Below are positions 21,193-35,685 of a stretch of 36,551 nucleotides of DNA, piece after piece. Each line of letters starts with the position of its first letter. The first letter of the stretch is position 1. The stretch covers positions 1-36,551 of the forward strand of contig JAADGP010000120.1 in the NCBI GenBank assembly GCA_013152315.1, written 5' to 3'. The notes under the pieces are model-generated. The model ran no database searches and had not been told where the DNA came from. It saw only the letters and a list, made by a program, of their open reading frames with translations. Origin of the DNA: FCB group bacterium. GTDB lineage: Bacteria; Fidelibacterota; Marinisomatia; Marinisomatales; JAADGP01. A program made the position numbers and the translations under genes.

Positions 21193-21353
21193 AAATAATT
21201 GACGTGTGACTTGTGCATCAGCCGGAAAGCATGATGTCCGGCAATCGTCGGAAAAAAACAGGTTGCTGATTTTTACCAGGCGTAAAAATGTTTGTAACCC
21301 CGGTAAAAAGTGTATTAACTTCCCGCCACGAGATTCAGGCGAATAAAAACATA

Positions 21354-21416
21354 ATGAATTGCAAAAGAAAAAATTGTTGTTGTATGGTGGACTCAAGAGG
21401 ACTTGTGCCGGTGTAG
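21354..21416 (+). CDS. Cysteine leader peptide 1 (MNCKRKNCCCMVDSRGLVPV*)
   Basis: 20-codon ORF: ATG AAT TGC AAA AGA AAA AAT TGT TGT TGT ATG ... CTT GTG CCG GTG TAG; followed by an intrinsic terminator; same design repeated 187 nt downstream. Confidence 0.82.
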   Translation: MNCKRKNCCCMVDSRGLVPV

Positions 21417-21477
21417 AGGTATATAGAAATACAATTACAAAGAACCCTTTCATCAGCACAAGTGAAAGGGTTTTTTA
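21402..21477 (+). promoter_or_regulatory. Attenuator 1: antiterminator 21402-21413 with 21451-21462, mutually constraining with terminator 21443-21472
   Basis: cttgtgccggtg pairs with catcagcacaag (one mismatch, one G-U). Terminator stem AACCCTTTCA/TGAAAGGGTT (10 bp) followed by a T-run. Confidence 0.78.
21443..21477 (+). terminator. Intrinsic terminator 1 of the cys leader
   Basis: aaccctttca-tcagcacaag-tgaaagggtt then tttta; 10-bp perfect stem. Confidence 0.85.
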
Positions 21478-21540
21478 TTAAAGATATCGAATCAAAAGCG
21501 AAAAAAGAAAAATAATATAGTGCGAAACAAGCGTAAAAAT

Positions 21541-21603
21541 ATGATTAACGGAAATGCCGGTTGTTGTTGTATGATGAAAGCAAGGGGACTTGTGCTGGTG
21601 TAG
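21541..21603 (+). CDS. Cysteine leader peptide 2 (MINGNAGCCCMMKARGLVLV*)
   Basis: 20-codon ORF: ATG ATT AAC GGA AAT GCC GGT TGT TGT TGT ATG ATG ... CTT GTG CTG GTG TAG; Cys triplet in the same codon register (8-10) as leader 1. Confidence 0.82.
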   Translation: MINGNAGCCCMMKARGLVLV

Positions 21604-21665
21604 CCGTACAATCAAATTTCAATCAGTCAAGCCCCTTCACCAGCACAAATGAAGGGGCTTTTTTA
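21590..21665 (+). promoter_or_regulatory. Attenuator 2: antiterminator 21590-21600 with 21638-21648, mutually constraining with terminator 21629-21660
   Basis: ttgtgctggtg is a perfect 11-nt complement of caccagcacaa; terminator stem AAGCCCCTTCA/TGAAGGGGCTT. Confidence 0.78.
21629..21665 (+). terminator. Intrinsic terminator 2 of the cys leader
   Basis: aagccccttca-ccagcacaaa-tgaaggggctt followed by tttt; 11-bp perfect stem. Confidence 0.88.
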
Positions 21666-21676
21666 TAAAGAAATAA

Positions 21677-23272
21677 GTGAAAAAGAAGATGGATACGAAC
21701 AATAAGACTCAAAAAACGAAGATAGACGTAGAAGCATTAAGAAAGGGCGGGGTGGTAAAGCTGAAGGACCCCGATATGTATTCGGTATGGATAAAAACCG
21801 CGTGCTGTAACCTGAATTCCGAACAATTGATTAAAATCGCGGACATTACCGATAAATACGCCCGGGGTTATCTTTTATTCAGTACCAGACAGATCCCGAT
21901 TATTCCTCATATTCATTTGAATGATGTTGAACAGGTTAAGGAAGAGCTGAGCCGGGTTTATCTGGAATTGGATCGGTGCGGACCGCGCGTGAGAAATATT
22001 AACGTTTGCTACAGCAATACGATATGTCCCGACGCGATTACCGACTCCATATCCCTGGCTGAAAAACTTGAGAATTATTTTCGTGACCCGATTCTCCACA
22101 AGATAAAGATCGGTGTGGCCGGTTGTAAGAAGGACTGCATCATATCCCGGGTACTGAACGATATCAGCTTTGTCGGTGTGGAGCAAGATGGCCGGCAGGG
22201 TTATTACGACGTGTACGTTGGTGGGAAATTGGGATTAAATCCCTTCGTAGGGGTGAAAATGGCAAGTCGGATATCGGAAGAAGAAGCGGTACGATTTGTT
22301 AATAACTACTTCGAATTGATGCGCAATGAAGGGAAAAAGGGAGAAAGGGGTTCGCACCTGATTAAAAGGCTTGGAGTGGAATACGTGAAGCAGGTCCTGA
22401 ACACGGATTTGCAGCAACGTCCGCCTGTCGAGCCGGTTCCCTGCGCCACCAAGACGAATGAGGTCGCCACCAATAAGATGATTCTGAAGATTCGTGCCAC
22501 GTGTGGAGAAATAACATCGAACCAGTTAAGGGAGATTGCCGACATTTCCGAAAAGTACGGCCATGGATTTGTTCATTTCGCGGTACGGGGCGCGCCTGAG
22601 ATTCCCTATGTGGATACGCAATATCTGGAAATCATCCGGGAAAGATTGGCTATTGTCGGTCTGCAGATACTGGACAGGGGAATAGATAATCTGCAATCCT
22701 GCTTCGGCGAATATTGTACCGAAAGCAACGCCCACACGCAACCTCTGCTGCGGAAAGTCGAACGGCTGGTGGAGGACCTGGGTCTGAACAATCTGAACAT
22801 CAAAATATCGGGGTCCGGCTGCCCGAATTCCTGCGGGATTTCCCATATTAACGACATCGGCTATATTGGTGTGGCAAAACCGGCTGTGAATGAGAGTGAG
22901 TGTGTTGGTTGCGAACTCTGTCTGGATGTGTGTAAACGGGAAGCCATCGACATGGTCGCCGATATTGCCGTGATCAATGAAGACAAATGCCGTCATTGCG
23001 GTCAATGTATAGCGGTTTGCCCCTTTGAAGCGATACTGGAAGAACAGAAAGGTTTCTCCATATTGGTGGGGGGCAAAGAAGGTGAGGACACGCGACTGGG
23101 AGAAGTGATTGCCGAATTCCTGACGGATGAGGAAACACTGGAAGTTACCGAAAGATGCTTGCGCATTGTAAAGGACCGGGGCGTGAATGTTGCCACCCTC
23201 CTGGATGAAATCGGCATTGAGGGCTTAAAGGAAATGATTCTACCCAGTGAACAATTCGTGTATTGTGATTAA
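21677..23272 (+). CDS. Siroheme-dependent nitrite/sulfite reductase with two siroheme/[4Fe-4S] repeats and a 2x[4Fe-4S] ferredoxin domain
   Basis: Repeat 1 'CYSNTIC...GCKKDC' (CX5C..CX3C); repeat 2 'CFGEYC...GCPNSC'; then 'CVGCELCLDVCKREA...CRHCGQCIAVCPFEA'. GTG (21677) or ATG (21689) start. Confidence 0.85.
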   Translation: MKKKMDTNNKTQKTKIDVEALRKGGVVKLKDPDMYSVWIKTACCNLNSEQLIKIADITDKYARGYLLFSTRQIPIIPHIHLNDVEQVKEELSRVYLELDRCGPRVRNINVCYSNTICPDAITDSISLAEKLENYFRDPILHKIKIGVAGCKKDCIISRVLNDISFVGVEQDGRQGYYDVYVGGKLGLNPFVGVKMASRISEEEAVRFVNNYFELMRNEGKKGERGSHLIKRLGVEYVKQVLNTDLQQRPPVEPVPCATKTNEVATNKMILKIRATCGEITSNQLREIADISEKYGHGFVHFAVRGAPEIPYVDTQYLEIIRERLAIVGLQILDRGIDNLQSCFGEYCTESNAHTQPLLRKVERLVEDLGLNNLNIKISGSGCPNSCGISHINDIGYIGVAKPAVNESECVGCELCLDVCKREAIDMVADIAVINEDKCRHCGQCIAVCPFEAILEEQKGFSILVGGKEGEDTRLGEVIAEFLTDEETLEVTERCLRIVKDRGVNVATLLDEIGIEGLKEMILPSEQFVYCD

Positions 23273-23295: not shown

Positions 23296-24021
23296 GTGGA
23301 AGAAAAAATTAAACGCGCGAAAGAGTTAATTGAGTCGGCGATAACGACCTACGATAACGTTGCGGTAGCCTGCTCTTTCGGAAAAGACAGCATGGTTACT
23401 CTCCATCTGGCCAGGGAAGTGGATCCGGAGATCGAAGTTTTTGCGGTAATGACGGTATATAAACCAAGGGTAACCTACCTGTATCTCAGATTGATGAATT
23501 CAAAATGGAATCTGAATACAACCGTTTACATCGTGGCCGATCATATTCCGGAAGCTCTGCGGGATGACGCTTTAAATGTGGTATTGCTACCGGTGGAAGA
23601 GTTTGCCAGTCGTTCCTTACAGATCAAAGCTCAAACAGGGAAAGAAATTTATGAAGCGGATCCGGATGAATGTTGCCGGTTATTGAAAGTCGACCCCACC
23701 AAATTAGCCGTTAGCAAATTGGACGCCTGGATTTGCGGGTTGAGAAATACGGAAGGGCGAACCAGGAAAGATTACCGGGAGATCGAGAGCAAGGGTGGCC
23801 TTGTTAAAATAAATCCGATATTAACTTTCACGGAAGCCGAGATTTGGCGATATATCTCAACCCGAGGAATCGACCCCCATCCCTGGTATGGATTGGGCTA
23901 CAGGTCTCTTGGTTGTGAGACTTGCTCGCACATCGGTGGTGAGCTTGAAAGAGACGGACGCTGGATAAATACGAGTAAGTGCGGCGGCGAATGCGGTATC
24001 CACACACAAATATTAAAATAG
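23296..24021 (+). CDS. cysH: APS/PAPS reductase (CysH family, Fe-S type)
   Basis: 'ACSFGKDSMVTLHLA' PP-loop, 'ECCRLLKVDPTK' and 'GCETCS' Cys pairs, C-terminal 'GECGIHTQ'. GTG start. Confidence 0.88.
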   Translation: MEEKIKRAKELIESAITTYDNVAVACSFGKDSMVTLHLAREVDPEIEVFAVMTVYKPRVTYLYLRLMNSKWNLNTTVYIVADHIPEALRDDALNVVLLPVEEFASRSLQIKAQTGKEIYEADPDECCRLLKVDPTKLAVSKLDAWICGLRNTEGRTRKDYREIESKGGLVKINPILTFTEAEIWRYISTRGIDPHPWYGLGYRSLGCETCSHIGGELERDGRWINTSKCGGECGIHTQILK

Positions 24022-24036: not shown

Positions 24037-25242
24037 ATGGGACAAAATAACAAAAAGATAGAATTTGATCATCAATTGAGGGTTTATTCCAATATTATCC
24101 AACTGATTGCCAATTCGGATAATCCGACACCGCTGGTAAAGTTAAACCGGATAAACCCCAACAGCGACTTTGATATCTTCCTTAAACTGGAACGATATAA
24201 TCCTTTCGGTTCGATTAAGGATCGGATTGCCTATGAAATGTTAAGCGCTCTGGAAATCGGTGACAAAACCGTTGTGGAACCGTCTTCGGGGAATACCGGA
24301 ATCGCCCTGGTCAGTATTGCCAATGCTCTGGGAATACCGATCGAAATTGCCGTTCCGGAAGGGATTCCCGAAGAGAAAAAGGTGATGTTGAATTTTATGG
24401 GCGCCAAAGTCAACGAAGCCGATGATGAACTGTGCCCCTTATTTCCGTCCGAAGGCGCCCGGGGATTGGTAAACGCCCTCGTTAACAGTCCGGCTACAAG
24501 AGATAAATACATCAGCCCGAATCAATACGAAAATGAATTAAATGTCCAGGCCCATTATCGTACCACGGGACCGGAGATATGGAAACAAACGGGAGGGAAA
24601 ATTGATTATTTCTTTGCCGGATTTGGTACCTGCGGGACAATAACCGGAGTCGGGAAATACTTGAAGGAGAAGAATCCGAATATTAAGATCATTGGCATTG
24701 AACCGGCTTCTCTAAACCATAAATTACCGGGAATGAAGAGGATTACCGGGCTATCGGAAGATCTGGTACCCAAGATACTTGATAAATCGGTAATTGACGA
24801 TATCGTCGAGGTTAAGGATAATGATGCCTTTAAGACGGCTTTGAATCTCGCACGGAAAGATGGGGTGCTTGTTGGCCCTACTACCGGTGCCATTCTATAC
24901 GCGGCTTTGCAGTATGCGAAATCAAATAAAGGATTGTCCGTTGTGATCTCACCGGACGACGCGTTCAAATATGCCAGTTTCTACAAAGAAGTAATGGAAA
25001 CGATACAAGATGAACCCACGGTGAAAGAATATGATTTGAGCGACTATGTTTGCCCCATATCGAAAATAAAATCACTGGAGATAATTAATGAGTTAAATAC
25101 CGGTGAGACCATTAAAATCAAGTTGGGCGATATTGATTCTCTCAAAAATGTCATCAAGGAAGTGAAGACCCGGGGTTTCAAGCCCGGCATAGACCGGAAA
25201 CCCGACGATGGGTTCATCTTAACAATCGCAAACGAAGGTTGA
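24037..25242 (+). CDS. Cysteine synthase-like PLP enzyme with C-terminal TusA/SirA-like domain
   Basis: 'NPFGSIKDRIAYEML' PLP lysine region, 'EPSSGNTGIALVSIANALG' and 'GFGTCGTITGVGKYLKEK'; C-terminal ~65 aa 'VCPISKIKSLEIINELNTGETIKIKLGD...' resembles TusA. Confidence 0.85.
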   Translation: MGQNNKKIEFDHQLRVYSNIIQLIANSDNPTPLVKLNRINPNSDFDIFLKLERYNPFGSIKDRIAYEMLSALEIGDKTVVEPSSGNTGIALVSIANALGIPIEIAVPEGIPEEKKVMLNFMGAKVNEADDELCPLFPSEGARGLVNALVNSPATRDKYISPNQYENELNVQAHYRTTGPEIWKQTGGKIDYFFAGFGTCGTITGVGKYLKEKNPNIKIIGIEPASLNHKLPGMKRITGLSEDLVPKILDKSVIDDIVEVKDNDAFKTALNLARKDGVLVGPTTGAILYAALQYAKSNKGLSVVISPDDAFKYASFYKEVMETIQDEPTVKEYDLSDYVCPISKIKSLEIINELNTGETIKIKLGDIDSLKNVIKEVKTRGFKPGIDRKPDDGFILTIANEG

Positions 25243-26042: not shown

Positions 26043-27593
26043 ATGGTAACCCGTTATAAACACTTACAGCGCGAAGTAAAGGAATTGTCTCTGTTGTTCG
26101 AAATAAGCCAGACTTTAAATCGGAGTAAAAATATAAAAGAGATTGTAAGACCGGTATTGAAAGTGGTTGCTGAGCACATGGGTTTGTCGCGAGCGGCCTT
26201 GACTATTTTGAATCGCACAACCAATGAGATATTTATCGAAGATGCTTACGGTCTTTCCGTGGAGGAGCGTGCCCGGGGACGGTACAAGGTCGGTGAAGGA
26301 ATAACCGGTAAGGTTGTCGCTTCGGGCCGTCCCATGATCATACCGAAAATTTCCGAGGAACCGCAATTTCTCGATCGGACCGAAGCCCGGAAGAACCTCA
26401 ATAAAAGTGATATTTCATTTATTTGTGTCCCTATAAAGTTATCGGGTGAGGTGATTGGCGCTTTCAGCGTTGATCGGTTATTCGATGACAGTTTCTCCCT
26501 GGAAGATGACGTGCGTTTGCTTTCCATCATCGCCTCGATGATCGCCCAATCGGTGCGGGTTTACCAATCCCTCCAGGAGGAACGGTTGTATCTCCAGGAA
26601 GAGAATCAGCGCTTACAGAATGAAGTTAAGGACGTGTTCCGGCCGGCCAATATTATCGGTAATGCCAAACGCATGAAGGAGATGTACGCCCTTATCGAGC
26701 GGGTCTCTTCGACGGACACCACCGTGTTCATATATGGAGAAAGTGGAGTCGGCAAGGAATTGGTTGCCGCCGCTATTCATTACAACAGTAACCGGGCGGA
26801 TAAGCCATTCATAAAAGTCAATTGCGCCGCTTTTCCCGACAGCCTCGTGGAAAGTGAACTCTTTGGGCACGAGAAAGGATCCTTTACGGGAGCCGTTGCC
26901 ACCCGCAAGGGTCGGTTCGAATCGGCAAACGGGGGAACGCTTTTGCTGGATGAAATAGGCGATCTGTCGTTGGTTACACAGGTGAAACTATTGCGCGTGC
27001 TCCAGGAAAAGGAATTCGAACGGATCGGCAGCAACACCACTATTAAAACCGACGTGCGCATTATCGCGGCCACAAACCGTGATATTGAGGAGTTGATATC
27101 AAAAAGACTGTTTCGCCAGGATTTGTTCTATCGTCTCAATGTTTTTCCCATCCATGTACCGCCTTTAAGGCAGCGTAAATCCGACATTATGTTGTTGGCC
27201 GATCATTTTGTGGAAAAATACAGCAAAAAACTGGGACATCGCGTAAAACGAATCACCACATCCGCCATTGACATGATGATGTCTTACCATTGGCCCGGAA
27301 ACGTTCGTGAACTTGAAAATGCCATGGAAAGGGCCGTGCTGCTCAGTACCGATGGTGTAATTCACGCCTATCACATGCCGCCCAGCCTGCAGACGGCTGA
27401 AACCAGTGGAACAGTATGCCGGAGCACACTGGCGACAATTCTGTCGAATGTGGAACGGGATTTAATCATCGATGCTTTAAAATCCACAAAAGGGAACATG
27501 TCAAAGGCCACCAAGATTCTGGGTATAAGTGAACGAATAATGGGATTACGGGTAAAAAAATACGGAATAAATCCGAAGAATTATCGCGATTAG
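26043..27593 (+). CDS. nifA: Nif-specific sigma54-dependent transcriptional activator
   Basis: N-terminal GAF domain, AAA+ 'GESGVGKELVAAAIHY' and 'ELFGHEKGSFTGAVA' (GAFTGA-equivalent), Fis-type HTH 'KATKILGISERIMGLRVKKYGINPKNYR'; immediately upstream of nifH. Confidence 0.9.
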   Translation: MVTRYKHLQREVKELSLLFEISQTLNRSKNIKEIVRPVLKVVAEHMGLSRAALTILNRTTNEIFIEDAYGLSVEERARGRYKVGEGITGKVVASGRPMIIPKISEEPQFLDRTEARKNLNKSDISFICVPIKLSGEVIGAFSVDRLFDDSFSLEDDVRLLSIIASMIAQSVRVYQSLQEERLYLQEENQRLQNEVKDVFRPANIIGNAKRMKEMYALIERVSSTDTTVFIYGESGVGKELVAAAIHYNSNRADKPFIKVNCAAFPDSLVESELFGHEKGSFTGAVATRKGRFESANGGTLLLDEIGDLSLVTQVKLLRVLQEKEFERIGSNTTIKTDVRIIAATNRDIEELISKRLFRQDLFYRLNVFPIHVPPLRQRKSDIMLLADHFVEKYSKKLGHRVKRITTSAIDMMMSYHWPGNVRELENAMERAVLLSTDGVIHAYHMPPSLQTAETSGTVCRSTLATILSNVERDLIIDALKSTKGNMSKATKILGISERIMGLRVKKYGINPKNYRD

Positions 27594-27644
27594 ACAGACT
27601 GGCCTCATATCCACTCTGATTAAATGGGGCATAAATCAATGATT

Positions 27645-27674
27645 ACGTGGGATCAGAAGATCCCGCGTTTGTTT
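27645..27674 (+). terminator. Probable intrinsic terminator after nifA
   Basis: acgtgggatc-agaa-gatcccgcgt (27645-27654/27659-27668, one G-U) followed by ttgttt. Confidence 0.6.
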
Positions 27675-28090
27675 ACCCGATTGTCGTTAGGTTTTTTTAA
27701 TCACTATACTGGTTATATGGGTTACAAATGCATGGCAAGCCAGGCCCAGGCTATGTCCCGTTAAGCCCTCTTTTACAATAGTTAATATAGACATATAATG
27801 TTGAGGTCCTGCATTATCTTCCCGTTATTATTCTGTACCCTTGTGCTTTTCCTCCTTACCCCTCCGAAAGATAACAATTTATCTTTCCCTACATTTTTGT
27901 AATTCTCCCCATGTATTGGTCTGTAAACACAACATTATTGTAGGATTCTTTCAGCGAAAGAAAGGCCGGTAACAAACTTTCCTCCCGGAGTGGACTGAAA
28001 AATAATAAAAATTGTTGCACGCATAACCTGTTGGATATCTGTTTGTTATGAGTACCTGTGATTCGGATGGAGAAAATTGGCGTCATGAAT

Positions 28091-28105
28091 TGGCCCGTTT
28101 ATTGC
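28091..28105 (+). promoter_or_regulatory. Putative sigma54 (-24/-12) promoter of nifH
   Basis: TGGCCCGTTTATTGC: GG-N10-GC spacing and close match to TGGCACG-N4-TTGC, about 97 nt upstream of the nifH ATG. Confidence 0.8.
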
Positions 28106-28186
28106 CAATCGGTACTAACGTAACAGTTATACGAAATGATAAAAATATGAGTTTAATCGATCGGTAGTAAACGATAAAAAAAATAG

Positions 28187-29023
<837 letters not shown>

Positions 29024-29077
29024 TCCTTTCGGTAAAGTTGGTGCTCGTAATTTTTCAATAAAAACAGAGGATAAGTC

Positions 29078-29425
29078 ATGTTAATGATCAGATCAATTGT
29101 CAGGACGGAAAAGGCCGATGCGGTGCTTGCCGGACTTTTGGAAGCGGGATATCCTGCCGTAACAAGAATTTCCGTATATGGGCGTGGGAAACAGCGAGGT
29201 TTGAAAGTCGGGAGTGTTACCTATGATGAACTTCCCAAGGAATTGCTTCTCACGGTAATAAAAGAGAAAGATAAGGATTTCGTGGTCAAAACGATTATCG
29301 AGGCGGCGAAAACAGGGGATATGGGAGCTTATGGTGAGACGGGAAAATTTTCGTTTCTCCCGTACTCGAGGCCTATACTATCAGTTCCGGTGTTAAAGAA
29401 GTATCAACCAAGGAGTGAACCGTGA
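29078..29425 (+). CDS. nifI1: Nitrogenase-associated PII protein NifI1, apparently frameshifted near its C-terminus
   Basis: 'MLMIRSIVRTEKADAVLAGLLEAGYPAVTRISVYGRGKQRGLKVGSVTYDELPK' PII; after 'GAYG' the canonical DGKIFVSPVLEAYTISSGVKEVSTKE* lies in another frame ending at 29418. Confidence 0.9.
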   Translation: MLMIRSIVRTEKADAVLAGLLEAGYPAVTRISVYGRGKQRGLKVGSVTYDELPKELLLTVIKEKDKDFVVKTIIEAAKTGDMGAYGETGKFSFLPYSRPILSVPVLKKYQPRSEP

Positions 29426-29829
29426 AAGAAGTTATGGCAATGATTCGCATTAACCGGATAAATGCGACTAAAAGGGCGCTTAATGAGGTTGGAATAACCT
29501 CTTTTACAGCTACCGGGAAGGTTCTTGGACGCGGAAAAGGATTGGTTGATTTCCGGATCCTTGAAGGCGCCAAGGAAGGACGCCAAGAGGCAATTTCCTT
29601 ATTGGGAGATGGTCCCCGACTCGTACCTAAAAGACTCATAACGGTAATTGTCTCGGACAATTTTGTCGAAAGGACGGTAAAGGCGATCATTAAGGCAAAC
29701 CACACCGGGAATGCCGGTGACGGAAAAATATTTGTTTTGCCCATTCTGGAGGCCACGCGCGTCAGGACGGGAGAAACCGTAAGAGGGGAATCGGGAGGAA
29801 CCGTTCTTGATTCTTCAGGAGGACTATAA
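29422..29829 (+). CDS. nifI2: Nitrogenase-associated PII protein NifI2
   Basis: GTG start; PII fold with extended T-loop region and intact 'GNAGDGKIFVLPILEATRVRTGE' C-terminus; located between nifI1 and nifD. Confidence 0.93.
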   Translation: MKEVMAMIRINRINATKRALNEVGITSFTATGKVLGRGKGLVDFRILEGAKEGRQEAISLLGDGPRLVPKRLITVIVSDNFVERTVKAIIKANHTGNAGDGKIFVLPILEATRVRTGETVRGESGGTVLDSSGGL

Positions 29830-29831
29830 TA

Positions 29832-31454
29832 ATGGAACACAATATCCCAAAACCACCAACCGCGATAAAGGAGGAAATCCTTTCAAAGTATCCGCCGAAA
29901 GTCGCGCGGAAAAGAAATAAATCCATTGTTATCAGGGATCCGGAGGACGAACAGAAAATCCAGGCGAACGTCCGAACTATTCCCGGAATTATTACACAAC
30001 GCGGATGTGCTTATGCCGGTTGCAAAGGAGTGGTCCTCGGTCCCACCAGGGACATCATAAACATTACCCACGGACCGATTGGTTGCGGTTTTTACAGTTG
30101 GCTGACAAGAAGAAATCAAACCAAACCCGAAGGCGCCGAAGGTGAGAATTATATGACCTACTGTTTTTCGACGGATATGCAGGACTCAAATATCGTTTTC
30201 GGCGGCGAAAAGAAACTGAGGGAGGCTATTCAGGAAGCCTACGATCTCTTTAAGCCCAAGGCAATCAGTGTTTTTTCTACCTGTCCCGTCGGTTTGATCG
30301 GAGATGACGTCCACGCGATTGCCAAGGAAATGAAAAAGAAACTGGGAATTAATGTTTTTGCATTCAGTTGTGAGGGGTATAAAGGGGTAAGCCAGTCCGC
30401 CGGTCACCACATCGCCAACAACGGTCTCTTCAAACACGTAGTGGGTCTCGATGATACGGTAAGGGAAGGTGATTTCAAGATCAATATGCTTGGTGAATAC
30501 AATATCGGCGGCGACGCGTTTGAACTGGAACGTATTCTTGAGTTGGCGGGGTTTACGCTGATTTCCACCTTCAGCGGGAACTCGGATATGGGCCGCTTCG
30601 CGAATTCACACACAGCGGATCTTAACGTGATCATGTGTCACCGGTCCATCAATTACATGGCCGAGATGATGGAAACGAAATTCGGGATTCCCTGGTTGAA
30701 GGTGAATTTTACCGGCGCGAAAGCCACGGCAAAATCCCTGCGAAAAATGGCCCAGTATTTCGGTGATAAAAAACTTATTAACCGGGTGGAGAAACTTATC
30801 AGGAATGAAATGGCGGCGGTAAACAAGGTTTTAAGCGAAACGAGACCGCGGTGCGAAGGGAAACTGGCCATGCTCTTCGTCGGTGGCTCACGGGCCCATC
30901 ATTACCAGGAGCTGTTTAATGAACTGGGAATGAAAACGGTTTGCGCCGGCTATGAATTCGGCCACCGCGATGATTATGAGGGCCGTGATGTTCTGCCCGA
31001 CATAAAAATCGACGCCGACAGTCGCAATATTGAAGAGCTGTTTGTCGAAAAGGATGAAAAACGATATCGTCCCCGGAAAACTTCAGAAGAAATCCTGGAG
31101 CTCAAGAAAAAGGGCCTCGAAATTGGCGAATATAATGGATTAATGGCGGAGATGAGTAAACAGTCGCTTGTTGTGGATGATATTACCCATTATGAAACGG
31201 AAAAATTAATTGAATTCTACAAGCCGCACATATTCTGTGCCGGAATCAAGGAAAAATATGTTGTGCAGAAAATGGGTGTCCCTTTGAAACAGTTGCACAG
31301 TTACGATTATGGCGGGCCCTATGCCGGATTCCGGGGGGCGATCAATTTCTACCAGGAAATTGATCGTATGGTCAATACCCGCATTTGGGATTTGATAACA
31401 CCTCCCTGGGAAAAGAATGGGGCGGAAATCACGGCTGAATTTGTCTCTTTGTAG
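29832..31454 (+). CDS. nifD: Nitrogenase molybdenum-iron protein alpha chain
   Basis: P-cluster Cys motifs 'RGCAYAGCKG', 'GPIGCGFYSW', 'STCPVGLIGDD'; 'SQSAGHHIAN'; cofactor Cys 'IMCHRSINY' and His 'LHSYDYGGPYAGF'. Confidence 0.97.
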   Translation: MEHNIPKPPTAIKEEILSKYPPKVARKRNKSIVIRDPEDEQKIQANVRTIPGIITQRGCAYAGCKGVVLGPTRDIINITHGPIGCGFYSWLTRRNQTKPEGAEGENYMTYCFSTDMQDSNIVFGGEKKLREAIQEAYDLFKPKAISVFSTCPVGLIGDDVHAIAKEMKKKLGINVFAFSCEGYKGVSQSAGHHIANNGLFKHVVGLDDTVREGDFKINMLGEYNIGGDAFELERILELAGFTLISTFSGNSDMGRFANSHTADLNVIMCHRSINYMAEMMETKFGIPWLKVNFTGAKATAKSLRKMAQYFGDKKLINRVEKLIRNEMAAVNKVLSETRPRCEGKLAMLFVGGSRAHHYQELFNELGMKTVCAGYEFGHRDDYEGRDVLPDIKIDADSRNIEELFVEKDEKRYRPRKTSEEILELKKKGLEIGEYNGLMAEMSKQSLVVDDITHYETEKLIEFYKPHIFCAGIKEKYVVQKMGVPLKQLHSYDYGGPYAGFRGAINFYQEIDRMVNTRIWDLITPPWEKNGAEITAEFVSL

Positions 31455-31478
31455 ACCTTTTCAATAAAGGAGAAATTA

Positions 31479-32861
31479 ATGCTTTTACGACATACACCTT
31501 CTGAAATTAAAGAAAGAAATGCGCTTACAATAAATCCTGCCAAGACTTGCCAGCCGATTGGAGCGATGTATGCCGCGCTGGGAATCCATGGTTGTTTGCC
31601 ACACAGCCATGGTTCCCAGGGCTGTTGTGCCTACCATAGAAGTACCCTTACCCGACACTTTAAAGAGCCCGTCATGGCCGCCACCAGTTCCTTTACGGAA
31701 GGGGCCTCGGTGTTTGGAGGACAGGCCAACCTGCTCCAGGCCATTAACAACATGTTTACCGTGTATACTCCCGAAGTGATTGCGGTTCATACCACGTGCC
31801 TTTCGGAAACAATTGGGGATGACATAAACCAAATTATCCGCAAGGCCTATGAAGATGGAAAAGTTCCGGAAGGAAAGCATGTGATTCACTGCAACACTCC
31901 CAGTTATGTAGGCTCGCATGTTACCGGCTATGCGAATATGGTGGCCGGAATGGTGAAATATTTTTCCGAATCAACAGGGAGGTACCGTGATCAGATTAAT
32001 ATTATTCCGGGGTGGATCGAGCCGTCGGATATGAGGGAAATAAAAAGAATCGCCAAGGAGATGGGTGTGAAAATCATTCTTTTTCCCGATACCTCCGATG
32101 TCCTGGACGCTCCTCAAAAGGGGAAACACATGTTTTATCCCGAGGGGGGTGTTACGATACCGGATCTGAGAAGTACGGGAGACAGCAAACTGACAATTGC
32201 GCTCGGGCCCTTCGGCACCGAAAGCGCAGCCGCCTTGTTGGATACCAAATGCAAAGTGAAATATGAATTGCTCGATCTCCCCATCGGGATTTCCGCTACG
32301 GACAGATTTATCAGCGGTTTGAGCCGGGCAGCCTGTGTGGAAGTACCGGTATCGATTACCGCCGAAAGGGGAAGGGCGGTCGATATTATTACCGATATGC
32401 AACAATACTTCTATAATAAAAAGGTTGCCTTGTTCGGCGATCCGGACCAACTGATGGCGCTTACCGAATTCCTGGTGGACCTTGAAATGAAACCCATCCA
32501 TATTATTAGTGGTACGCCCGGTAAACAGTTTGTGCCAAGGATCAGAAACATCCTGAAAGACAAGGTCCCCAATGCAAATGTCAGGAATGGTGCAAATGCC
32601 GATCTATTTCTGCTGCACCAGCTCATTAAGAACGAACCCGTGGACCTTCTCGTCGGCAATACCTACGGTAAATATATCGCCAGGGACGAGGATATTCCTT
32701 TTGTGCGAATGGGATTCCCGATTCTGGACAGGATTGGTCATAGTTATTTCCCAACGGTCGGCTATTCCGGCGCGATGCGTTTACTGGAAACGATCTTGTC
32801 CGCCCTGATGGACCGGCAGGACAGGGATGCTCCGGAAGAAAGTTTCGAACTTGTGATGTAA
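31479..32861 (+). CDS. nifK: Nitrogenase molybdenum-iron protein beta chain
   Basis: 'CQPIGAMYAALGIHGCLPHSHGSQGCCAYHR' and 'TTCLSETIGDDI'. Confidence 0.97.
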   Translation: MLLRHTPSEIKERNALTINPAKTCQPIGAMYAALGIHGCLPHSHGSQGCCAYHRSTLTRHFKEPVMAATSSFTEGASVFGGQANLLQAINNMFTVYTPEVIAVHTTCLSETIGDDINQIIRKAYEDGKVPEGKHVIHCNTPSYVGSHVTGYANMVAGMVKYFSESTGRYRDQINIIPGWIEPSDMREIKRIAKEMGVKIILFPDTSDVLDAPQKGKHMFYPEGGVTIPDLRSTGDSKLTIALGPFGTESAAALLDTKCKVKYELLDLPIGISATDRFISGLSRAACVEVPVSITAERGRAVDIITDMQQYFYNKKVALFGDPDQLMALTEFLVDLEMKPIHIISGTPGKQFVPRIRNILKDKVPNANVRNGANADLFLLHQLIKNEPVDLLVGNTYGKYIARDEDIPFVRMGFPILDRIGHSYFPTVGYSGAMRLLETILSALMDRQDRDAPEESFELVM

Positions 32862-32987
32862 CCTCATTGCTGGTTCAATCCGGTTATGTATTCATGAGAA
32901 ATTTAATGAAACGAAATAAGGCCATGGAACCTCGGGGACATCGCTGGTATCCATGGAACTCCAATACTCTTTGGAATATGAGCGAGT

Positions 32988-34355
32988 GTGAAAATGGTTA
33001 AAGTATTGGCACAGCGTGAAAAGCAGGTTTTTCGCAAGGGCGAAGACACGTTCAACATCGGTTGTGAACGCAATAGCGTTGCCGGATCCGTGAGCCAACG
33101 GGCTTGCGTGTTTTGCGGATCACGGGTAGTGCTTTACCCGATTGCCGATGCCTTGCATCTTATTCATGGACCGATCGGATGTGCTGCTTACACCTGGGAC
33201 ATCCGGGGTGCTCTTTCGTCCGGACCGAAACTCCACAGATTGAGTTTTTCGACGGATATTCAGGAGAAAAACGTTATCTACGGCGGTGAAAAAAAACTGT
33301 ACAATTCCCTTATTGAATTAATCGACATCTACCATCCCAAAGCAGCGTTCGTGTATGCCACCTGCATAGTGGGGATTATCGGCGATGATGTCGACGCGGT
33401 TTGTAAACGGGTTGCCGGTGAAAAAGGGATTCCGGTACTGCCTGTTCATTCCGAGGGCTTTAAGGGGACTAAAAAAGACGGTTACAGGGCTGCCTGTGAA
33501 GCGCTCCTGAAAATCATCGGCCGCGAAGCGACCGACAAAGTCCCCGAATTCAGCATCAATATTCTTGGTGACTTCAACATTGCCGGGGAAACGTGGGTTA
33601 TTCGGGATTATTACCGCCGGATGGGCGTTGAAGTGGTTTCCGTCATGACCGGAGATGGTAGGGTGGCGGATATCGGCCGTTCACATGGGGCTTCGTTAAA
33701 TGTAATCCAATGTTCCGGTTCCATGATGTATCTGGCGAAAAAGATGAAGGAAAAGTATGGTATCCCTTATATCCGTGTTTCCTATTTCGGGATTGAAGAT
33801 ACCTCGGAGGCGCTCTTTGCCGTGGCTCGTTTTTTTAACGACACGGAAATTCTGGAACGCACCGGCCTGCTTGTCGAATCGGAAGTTGAACGGGTTAATC
33901 GGCAAATACAACGTTATCGGAAAAAACTGAAAGGCCGGAAAGCCACGATTTATGTCGGGGGCGCGTTCAAGGCCTTTTCTCTGATCAAGGCCTTACATTT
34001 ACTGGGTATGGAGGTAGCCGTTGTCGGGTCTCAGACCGGCAACATCGACGACTACACGCGACTTAAGGACATGTGCCTCCCGGGTACGATTATTCTCGAC
34101 GATTCCAATCCGGTTGAACTGGCGAATTTTTCACTCGAGAAGGAAGTGGATTTGTTTATCGGAGGTGTTAAGGAAAGACCCCTGGCTTACAAACTGGGGA
34201 TAGGCTTTTGTGATCACAACCATGAGCGAAAACAAATATTGGCCGGTTACGAAGGAATGGTGAATTTTGCAAAAGAGGTTTATTCCTCGGTGATGAGTCC
34301 TGTTTGGAGGTTTTCTCCACGAAAGACAGGGAGAATGGCAAATGATATCGGCTGA
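32988..34355 (+). CDS. nifE: Nitrogenase FeMo-cofactor scaffold protein NifE
   Basis: NifD paralogue with 'RACVFCGSRVVL', 'GPIGCAAYTWDIRGA', 'ATCIVGIIGDDV'; downstream of nifK. Confidence 0.94.
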   Translation: MKMVKVLAQREKQVFRKGEDTFNIGCERNSVAGSVSQRACVFCGSRVVLYPIADALHLIHGPIGCAAYTWDIRGALSSGPKLHRLSFSTDIQEKNVIYGGEKKLYNSLIELIDIYHPKAAFVYATCIVGIIGDDVDAVCKRVAGEKGIPVLPVHSEGFKGTKKDGYRAACEALLKIIGREATDKVPEFSINILGDFNIAGETWVIRDYYRRMGVEVVSVMTGDGRVADIGRSHGASLNVIQCSGSMMYLAKKMKEKYGIPYIRVSYFGIEDTSEALFAVARFFNDTEILERTGLLVESEVERVNRQIQRYRKKLKGRKATIYVGGAFKAFSLIKALHLLGMEVAVVGSQTGNIDDYTRLKDMCLPGTIILDDSNPVELANFSLEKEVDLFIGGVKERPLAYKLGIGFCDHNHERKQILAGYEGMVNFAKEVYSSVMSPVWRFSPRKTGRMANDIG

Positions 34356-35685
34356 GAAAAACTTTACGGCCACAACCAATCCCTGCAAGTTGTGCGCTCC
34401 TTTGGGAGCCTCCCTGGTATTTAAGGGTGTGCGGGATGCGTTGTGCCTTCTGCACGGTTCACAGGGATGCGCGACCTATATCCGAAGATATCTTATCAGC
34501 CATTTCAGGGAGCCGGTCGATATTGCTTCATCGAGTTTTGCGGAGGCCGCTGCCGTTTTCGGCGGTGGCGATAACCTTAAAAAAGCTTTAATGAATGTTG
34601 GCAGTCAGTACCACCCTGAAATTATTGGTGTCGCCACCACTTGTCTCAGCGAAACCATCGGGGATAATGTGCCGATGTATATAAGCGAATTCAAAAAGGC
34701 GAATGCCGGAACGGATTTACCGGAGATTATTCATGTCTCCACACCAAGTTACCGGGGGACACACATGGATGGATTTTATGAATCCGTAAAGGCCTTGGTA
34801 AAGTCATTGGCGCGCGGGGGCGACCGTACCGATCGGATTGCCCTGTTTCCCGGTTTTGTTTCACCCGCGGATATGCGTTATCTGAAAGAAATTTTTTCCG
34901 ATTTTGGTTTGCCCTGGGTGATGCTTCCCGATTATTCGGAAACATTGGACGGTCCCTTGTGGAAAGAATATCAAAGAATCCCAAAGGGAGGAACAACCTA
35001 TGATGAGATTGTTTCCCTGGGATGCTCACAGGCAACCATCGAATTTGGGCACACCCTGAAAACGGGCGGGAGTGCCGGTGAGAAGTATTCCGTGCCGCGG
35101 TATACCCTTGGAATGCCGATCGGCATAACCCTCAGTGATGAATTTTTCAGTGTATTGGGACAATTGAGCGGGAAAGAAATGCCGGCGAAATATGGGGAGG
35201 AACGCGGAAGACTCATTGATGCTTATGCCGATGCCCACAAATATATTTTCGAAAAAAAAGCAATTGTATTCGGCGAGGAGGACCTGGTCATAGCAATGAC
35301 ATCGTTCCTGCTTGAAATCGGTGTCGTCCCGGTGCTCTGTGCTTCCGGTTCCAAAAGCGGCACCATGAAAAAAACGATATCGGAAATGGGAGCCGGCTAC
35401 GGACGATCGATTTCGGTCCGTGAAGGCGCCGACTTTGCCGATATTTTGGATGAAGCAAGAATTTTGCGTCCCGATTTCATGGTGGGGAACAGCAAAGGCT
35501 ACGCAATAGCCCGTGAATTAGATATTCCCCTGGTTCGTATCGGCTTTCCGGTACACGATCGCATTGGCGGGGGGCGGTTATTGCATTTGGGATATCGGGG
35601 CAGCCAGGAACTTTTTGATCGTATCGTCAACACCATTATCGAGTGTACCCAGGCAAAATCGCCCGTGGGACATTCGTATATGTAA
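34342..35685 (+). CDS. nifN: Nitrogenase FeMo-cofactor scaffold protein NifN
   Basis: NifK paralogue with 'NPCKLCAPLGASLVFKGV', 'HGSQGCATYIRRYLISHFREP', 'TTCLSETIGDN'; overlaps nifE end. Confidence 0.94.
   Translation: MISAEKNFTATTNPCKLCAPLGASLVFKGVRDALCLLHGSQGCATYIRRYLISHFREPVDIASSSFAEAAAVFGGGDNLKKALMNVGSQYHPEIIGVATTCLSETIGDNVPMYISEFKKANAGTDLPEIIHVSTPSYRGTHMDGFYESVKALVKSLARGGDRTDRIALFPGFVSPADMRYLKEIFSDFGLPWVMLPDYSETLDGPLWKEYQRIPKGGTTYDEIVSLGCSQATIEFGHTLKTGGSAGEKYSVPRYTLGMPIGITLSDEFFSVLGQLSGKEMPAKYGEERGRLIDAYADAHKYIFEKKAIVFGEEDLVIAMTSFLLEIGVVPVLCASGSKSGTMKKTISEMGAGYGRSISVREGADFADILDEARILRPDFMVGNSKGYAIARELDIPLVRIGFPVHDRIGGGRLLHLGYRGSQELFDRIVNTIIECTQAKSPVGHSYM

Follow-up and report, generated by a model that had tools for sequence, protein, structure and literature searches.

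Polycysteine leaderless short ORFs of mycobacteria were reportedly described by Canestrari in 2020. According to three reports, such ORFs carry runs of Cys codons ahead of cysteine genes and are associated with cysteine-responsive attenuation (PMC9094748, PMC9031893, PMC13236596), and the leaders are classified as translational attenuators in the latter two (PMC9031893, PMC13236596). Actinobacterial Cys leaders, which lack terminators, were first predicted in PMC1262725. In Rhodobacterales, uORFC-8-2 precedes cysS, has adjacent Cys codons with an intrinsic terminator behind them, and was predicted to be a Cys attenuator (PMC8632094). For Salmonella mgtCBR, a leader that contains two short ORFs and their attenuator structures has been described (PMC3641672). 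No leader-peptide papers on Marinimicrobia were found in the literature searched, in which few subscription journals were covered.

The window analyzed here is a stretch of DNA of 36,551 nucleotides from a Candidatus Neomarinimicrobiota MAG (contig JAADGP010000120.1). Judged from its sequence and that of its relatives, it very probably carries two complete and independent ribosome-mediated transcription attenuators in series, with one likely promoter, before a cysteine operon. The mechanism is ordinary in kind, being classical leader attenuation, and Cys leaders are already known (mycobacteria) or predicted (Rhodobacterales cysS). New are the tandem arrangement, a predicted Cys regulon that spans the phylum, and an antiterminator directed at the terminator loop.

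Comparison with described systems

Like the trp, his, and leu leaders of enterobacteria, each unit combines a run of end-product codons with a terminator, an alternative pairing that a ribosome would mask, and a biosynthetic operon downstream. Unlike in those leaders, cysteine would be sensed, two units stand in series, and the predicted antiterminator is formed by the leader's own final codons, pairing mainly with the terminator loop. As a further difference, pairing of the leader tail with the spacer after the stop codon into a conserved protector (1:2-like) hairpin was not a general feature of the leaders here (mean z 0.04). Cys codon runs before cysteine genes are shared with the mycobacterial polycysteine ORFs. 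Those ORFs are leaderless and control translation without terminators, whereas an intrinsic terminator is present in each unit here and the ATG of leader 1 lies ~35 nt downstream of a promoter-like element. Compared by its description, uORFC-8-2 is likewise a Cys-codon uORF followed by an intrinsic terminator, but it is a single alphaproteobacterial unit in front of cysS with the Cys codons inside the first stem, and both the regulated gene and the architecture differ here. As in Salmonella mgtCBR, two short ORFs and their attenuators share a single leader. The two ORFs of that Mg2+ transport operon read different signals, while both ORFs of the present locus would read the same amino acid. 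No family of Rfam 15 gave a covariance-model match above its gathering score, and the one sub-threshold match was to an unrelated plastid 3'UTR hairpin.

Leader ORFs and downstream operon

The two leader ORFs are each 20 codons long with TGT TGT TGT ATG as codons 8-11. By translation, they agree exactly with the preliminary description, including an extra Cys at codon 3 of leader 1. The features of the leader region and operon are as follows.

21292 to 21319, forward strand: putative promoter-like element TTG-N18-TATTAAC, 5' of leader 1
21354 to 21416, forward strand: leader ORF 1, translating as MNCKRKNCCCMVDSRGLVPV and a stop, kept in the same genus and two other families
21375 to 21383, forward strand: Cys run of leader 1, TGT x3, with the additional Cys codon at 21360-21362
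21541 to 21603, forward strand: leader ORF 2, translating as MINGNAGCCCMMKARGLVLV and a stop, kept in relatives
21562 to 21570, forward strand: Cys run of leader 2, TGT x3
21677 to 23272, forward strand: gene 1, protein of the siroheme sulfite/nitrite reductase family that carries an additional 4Fe-4S domain (PF01077, PF03460, Fer4)
23296 to 24021, forward strand: gene 2, CysH-family APS/PAPS reductase (PF01507; NF002537 at cut-off)
24037 to 25242, forward strand: gene 3, PALP cysteine synthase whose C-terminal part is TusA-like (domain matches)

The sulfite reductase, APS/PAPS reductase, and cysteine synthase that had been named from the sequence alone were recovered by domain matches as a NIR_SIR protein, a PAPS_reduct-domain protein, and a PALP cysteine synthase. 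Gene 1 starts at GTG 21677 or at ATG 21689. The gene 2 product contains the motifs CC...CxxC and ECGIH, which, from general knowledge of the family, presumably indicate an APS reductase. The region 3' of the operon (26043-35685) encodes a nifA-like activator together with nifH, two PII-like genes, and nitrogenase-type genes of a nif cluster, so the host may be a nitrogen-fixing member of the Neomarinimicrobiota.

In the whole 2.08 Mb genome, TGTTGTTGTATG occurred at 2 sites, which are the two leaders, and its reversed control pattern at 0; GGACTTGTGCNGGTGTAG without mismatch was again found just at the two leader sites. Scanning 1.20 Mb of the source genome yielded 70 strong terminators, four of which were located between a CDS on their 3' side and, on their 5' side, a short ORF that starts with ATG and contains a run of one or more amino acids. 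These four belong to leaders 1 and 2, to a Tyr/Trp leader before trpE, and to one ORF overlapping the end of the upstream gene. Leaders 1 and 2 with their terminators are more than chance. For an overlap with the end of the upstream gene, MACSIWKTWWAAVK with its stop (L223) was rejected as a leader and is probably a chance ORF.

The pattern TTG-N18-T(A/C)TTAA was present at the matching position 5' of leader 1 in 4/4 operons, and both attenuators are therefore probably served by one promoter. A generic promoter scan returned no sigma-70 consensus match at the leader region.

Terminators and alternative pairing

The preliminary description was right about the ORFs of the locus and left out two intrinsic terminators. 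Strong terminators are located 3' of each leader, 23 nt (copy 1) and 25 nt (copy 2) past the stop codon, so that, as in amino-acid-leader attenuators, a short ORF with end-product codons lies 5' of a biosynthetic operon and a terminator separates it from the first gene.

21401 to 21413, forward strand: putative antiterminator strand 1, formed by the final codons of leader 1, with complementarity to the loop of terminator 1
21440 to 21480, forward strand: terminator 1, 14-bp stem, 8-nt loop, and T-tract, with the complement of the leader 1 tail at 21451-21463
21590 to 21600, forward strand: putative antiterminator strand 2, TTGTGCTGGTG, complementary to 21638-21648 over all 11 bp
21629 to 21666, forward strand: terminator 2, 11-bp stem, 10-nt loop, and T-tract, with the complement CACCAGCACAA at 21638-21648

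As isolated hairpin segments, terminators 1 and 2 had z-scores of -6.1 and -4.6. Neither was detected by the generic promoter/terminator scan, which has a loop limit of 8 and scores stems by G+C. In copy 1, the tail ACTTGTGCCGGTG pairs with the loop CATCAGCACAAGT with one C.A mismatch and one G.U, and in copy 2, the tail TTGTGCTGGTG pairs with CACCAGCACAA perfectly over 11 bp. The C.A mismatch arises from a Pro codon in copy 1 and in several relatives. The shared RGLV(P/L)V end, to which attention had been drawn earlier, is present in both otherwise differing peptides, though the emphasis shifts from the peptide to the RNA, as the end is mainly explained by pairing of the leader tails with the terminator loops.

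Complementarity, covariation, and spacing indicate an antiterminator strand that a ribosome halted at the stop would hide. In the window copies, the antiterminator spans the loop and just the top of the stem, and this loop-type pairing is predicted to physically exclude the terminator hairpin.

Conservation of the tandem leaders

Four genomes, representing three families of the phylum, carry the operon with tandem Cys-rich leaders at the same place, and a genome of the same genus has the operon at 92% protein identity. Conservation of the Cys codons and their register in relatives, proposed as a check when the leaders were first noticed, was thus observed. In an alignment of the 8 leaders from the four genomes, 88% of cells of the tail:loop helix were paired, compared to 29-47% when the helix was slid by 1-3 columns. 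Four pairs of this helix changed on both sides, e.g., from G-C to A-U. The terminator stem was 100% paired in the same alignment, and three of its pairs showed such two-sided changes. When columns were shuffled as a control for the tail:loop helix, the covariation score was reached in 19/500 and the number of double-change cells in 13/500 shuffles, a modest outcome that is to be expected for 8 related rows.

In two of the relatives, the second leader can be read as a longer ORF of >50 codons (L035:5742-5909 and L036:4592-4777) with a conserved N-terminal part MIDNKxPxGFNA..., whereas the window leaders have 20 codons. Beyond the Neomarinimicrobiota, the element is known from one contig, a Planctomycetota MAG (L034), which has a more distant copy of the operon. 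Its only leader contains Cys-Pro-Cys, and the tail of this leader forms ~14 bp with the 5' arm and loop of the terminator. On this contig, a transposase-like gene (L034:36-761) lies 5' of the Cys leader and operon, as would fit either horizontal transfer of the operon or an error in binning the contig.

Cys leaders across the phylum

A covariance model built from the 8 leaders was searched in 245 Neomarinimicrobiota genomes. At E <= 2e-4, it identified one relic and 15 additional Cys leaders that are intact and share the geometry of the window copies, and a second, refined model added one leader (G157). All 15 new leaders and G157 precede cysteine or sulfur genes: seven cysM-type synthases, six 750-aa NirA-like sulfite/nitrite reductases, one DUF4395-cysE, and one tusA-dsrE2 follow the 15, and a NirA-like reductase follows the G157 leader. 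As the model contains the TGT run, the Cys codons of its matches are not independent evidence, while the gene contexts are, since the downstream genes lie outside the model. Weaker matches (E about 1e-3 to 1e-2) were mostly ordinary terminators and were discarded.

A T-tract hairpin follows every leader, and spacing is uniform, with 18-33 nt from the last Cys codon to the stop and 20-28 nt from the stop to the terminator. The number of Cys codons per leader varies from 2 to 7, and the peptide from the Cys run to the tail is not conserved. Because p-values from spacer shuffling were weak when leaders were taken one at a time, tails and terminators were permuted across leaders. The sum of pairing energies with the own terminator was -196 kcal/mol, compared to -131 +/- 10 kcal/mol for permuted combinations, and 0/100,000 permutations were as good. 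Scored singly, tail:terminator complementarity is weak in several cysM, cysE, and other leaders. In G154_71, G155_24, and L034, the tail pairing covers the 5' arm of the terminator, and the exclusion predicted for these three is of the classical kind.

The relic belongs to G016 (L053/L087, G016:C143:1113-1215), where the ORF is frameshifted, the terminator stem is broken, and the promoter-like element is recognisable. The cysteine operon was not found in this genome, and none lies downstream of the decayed leader, which fits an element kept only for its genes.

These leaders add a complete, comparatively supported Cys attenuator family for this phylum and predict that sulfite reductases, cysM, cysE, and tusA-dsrE2 belong to a single cysteine regulon. 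The presence of such a leader in front of the 750-aa NirA-like reductases suggests that they reduce sulfite, not nitrite.

Predicted mechanism and alternatives

A trp/his-type leader-peptide attenuator sensing cysteine, the reading offered in the preliminary description, is supported by the terminators, the covarying antiterminator, the footprint spacing, and the Cys and sulfur gene contexts. With ample Cys-tRNA, the ribosome would reach the leader stop codon and cover the final codons, so that the terminator hairpin 23-25 nt downstream would form and transcription would end. With scarce Cys-tRNA, the ribosome would stall within the Cys codons and leave free the leader tail, which begins 17-19 nt after the Cys run. 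The free tail would pair with the terminator loop on its emergence, ahead of synthesis of the 3' arm, and this pairing would hinder the hairpin and let RNA polymerase read through. The scheme predicts that the leaders are translated, that ribosomes stall when Cys is scarce, that transcription terminates or reads through accordingly in vivo, and that a single promoter is used.

Folding of three RNA states supports the switch. In each copy, a nascent transcript that begins 12 nt beyond the Cys codons and ends with the loop adopts the antiterminator (-18.8 and -18.2 kcal/mol), and RNA that begins 3' of a ribosome halted at the stop codon adopts the terminator (-18.2 and -17.5 kcal/mol). Once the RNA is complete, the terminator is the more stable fold (-24.5 and about -26 kcal/mol); the switch must therefore be kinetic and act during transcription. 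Because polymerase must pass both attenuators, repression should multiply, and the tandem leaders offer a natural test of how two same-signal attenuators in series affect the dose-response curve. As a genomic element, the locus is a well-supported, real variant of leader attenuation, with its function predicted from sequence comparison.

Translational attenuation as in mycobacteria, in which a Cys stall would open the start of the downstream gene and the hairpins would be incidental, is quite improbable. Mycobacterial Cys leaders do act on translation by experiment (PMC9031893, PMC13236596), and terminator 2 lies within about 20 nt of the start of the SIR gene. However, leader 1 and its terminator are ~200 nt away from the gene, a hairpin and T-tract occur at fixed spacing for every leader, and the tail pairs with the terminator, with no conserved pairing to the gene start seen.

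Arrest by the nascent peptide would mean that the Cys run or a Pro-x-stop end binds thiol, metal, or sulfide in the exit tunnel and that Cys-tRNA is not sensed. The penultimate residue is indeed Pro in 16/25 leaders, encoded by three different Pro codons. Such an arrest is nevertheless highly improbable, as the peptide between Cys run and tail and the number of Cys codons vary among leaders, a stall freeing the tail must occur at the Cys codons, and the regulated genes make cysteine, as with starvation-type leaders. The reading of the leaders as chance ORFs in a duplicated, functionless terminator region fits the presence of GGACTTGTGCYGGTGTAG in both copies, which may thus descend from a duplication, but it has a negligible probability and is already contradicted by the comparative data: the leaders are conserved in three families and in front of other genes, they covary and keep a uniform spacing, and they decay where the operon is absent.

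Within the preferred reading of ribosome-mediated transcription attenuation, shared ancestry may account for part of the Pro excess, and slow peptide release at the stop may matter as well. A tentative extension, which we regard as possible though rather doubtful, is that the antiterminator acts by loop capture, with the final leader codons pairing to the loop and not to the stem of the terminator, and that the conserved Pro-x-stop slows release and thereby masks the strand at high cysteine. Selection would then act on the peptide as well as on the RNA, and the response to cysteine would be steeper with two serial switches than with a single one.

Other amino acid leaders

In the source genome, a Tyr/Trp-rich leader (MSTKTDRFNYYWYYQTRGLETRP and a stop, L144:1515-1633, contig C16) precedes trpE, with a terminator 28 nt past the stop and the same architecture as the Cys leaders. 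Two other Neomarinimicrobiota have a His5 leader with a terminator before hisG (L123, G099:C148) and an Ile/Leu-rich leader with a terminator before ilvD (L124, G216:C67). In a further relative, an Asn-rich short ORF (ending in QYNLINNRFNNANIFGMGDLF and a stop) with a terminator precedes the asparagine synthase gene asnB (L114, G090:C1, about 20.0-20.1 kb) and is a possible Asn attenuator, for which the literature search found no precedent. Together, the trpE, hisG, ilvD, and asnB leaders suggest that leader attenuation is a normal mode of control in the phylum. A leader with Met and Cys codons (ending in MGIMMCLMCMYSSDTVGVEWLL and a stop) was also observed before a threonine synthase gene (L091, G198:C1, about 58.6 kb), where tail and terminator form a strong duplex.
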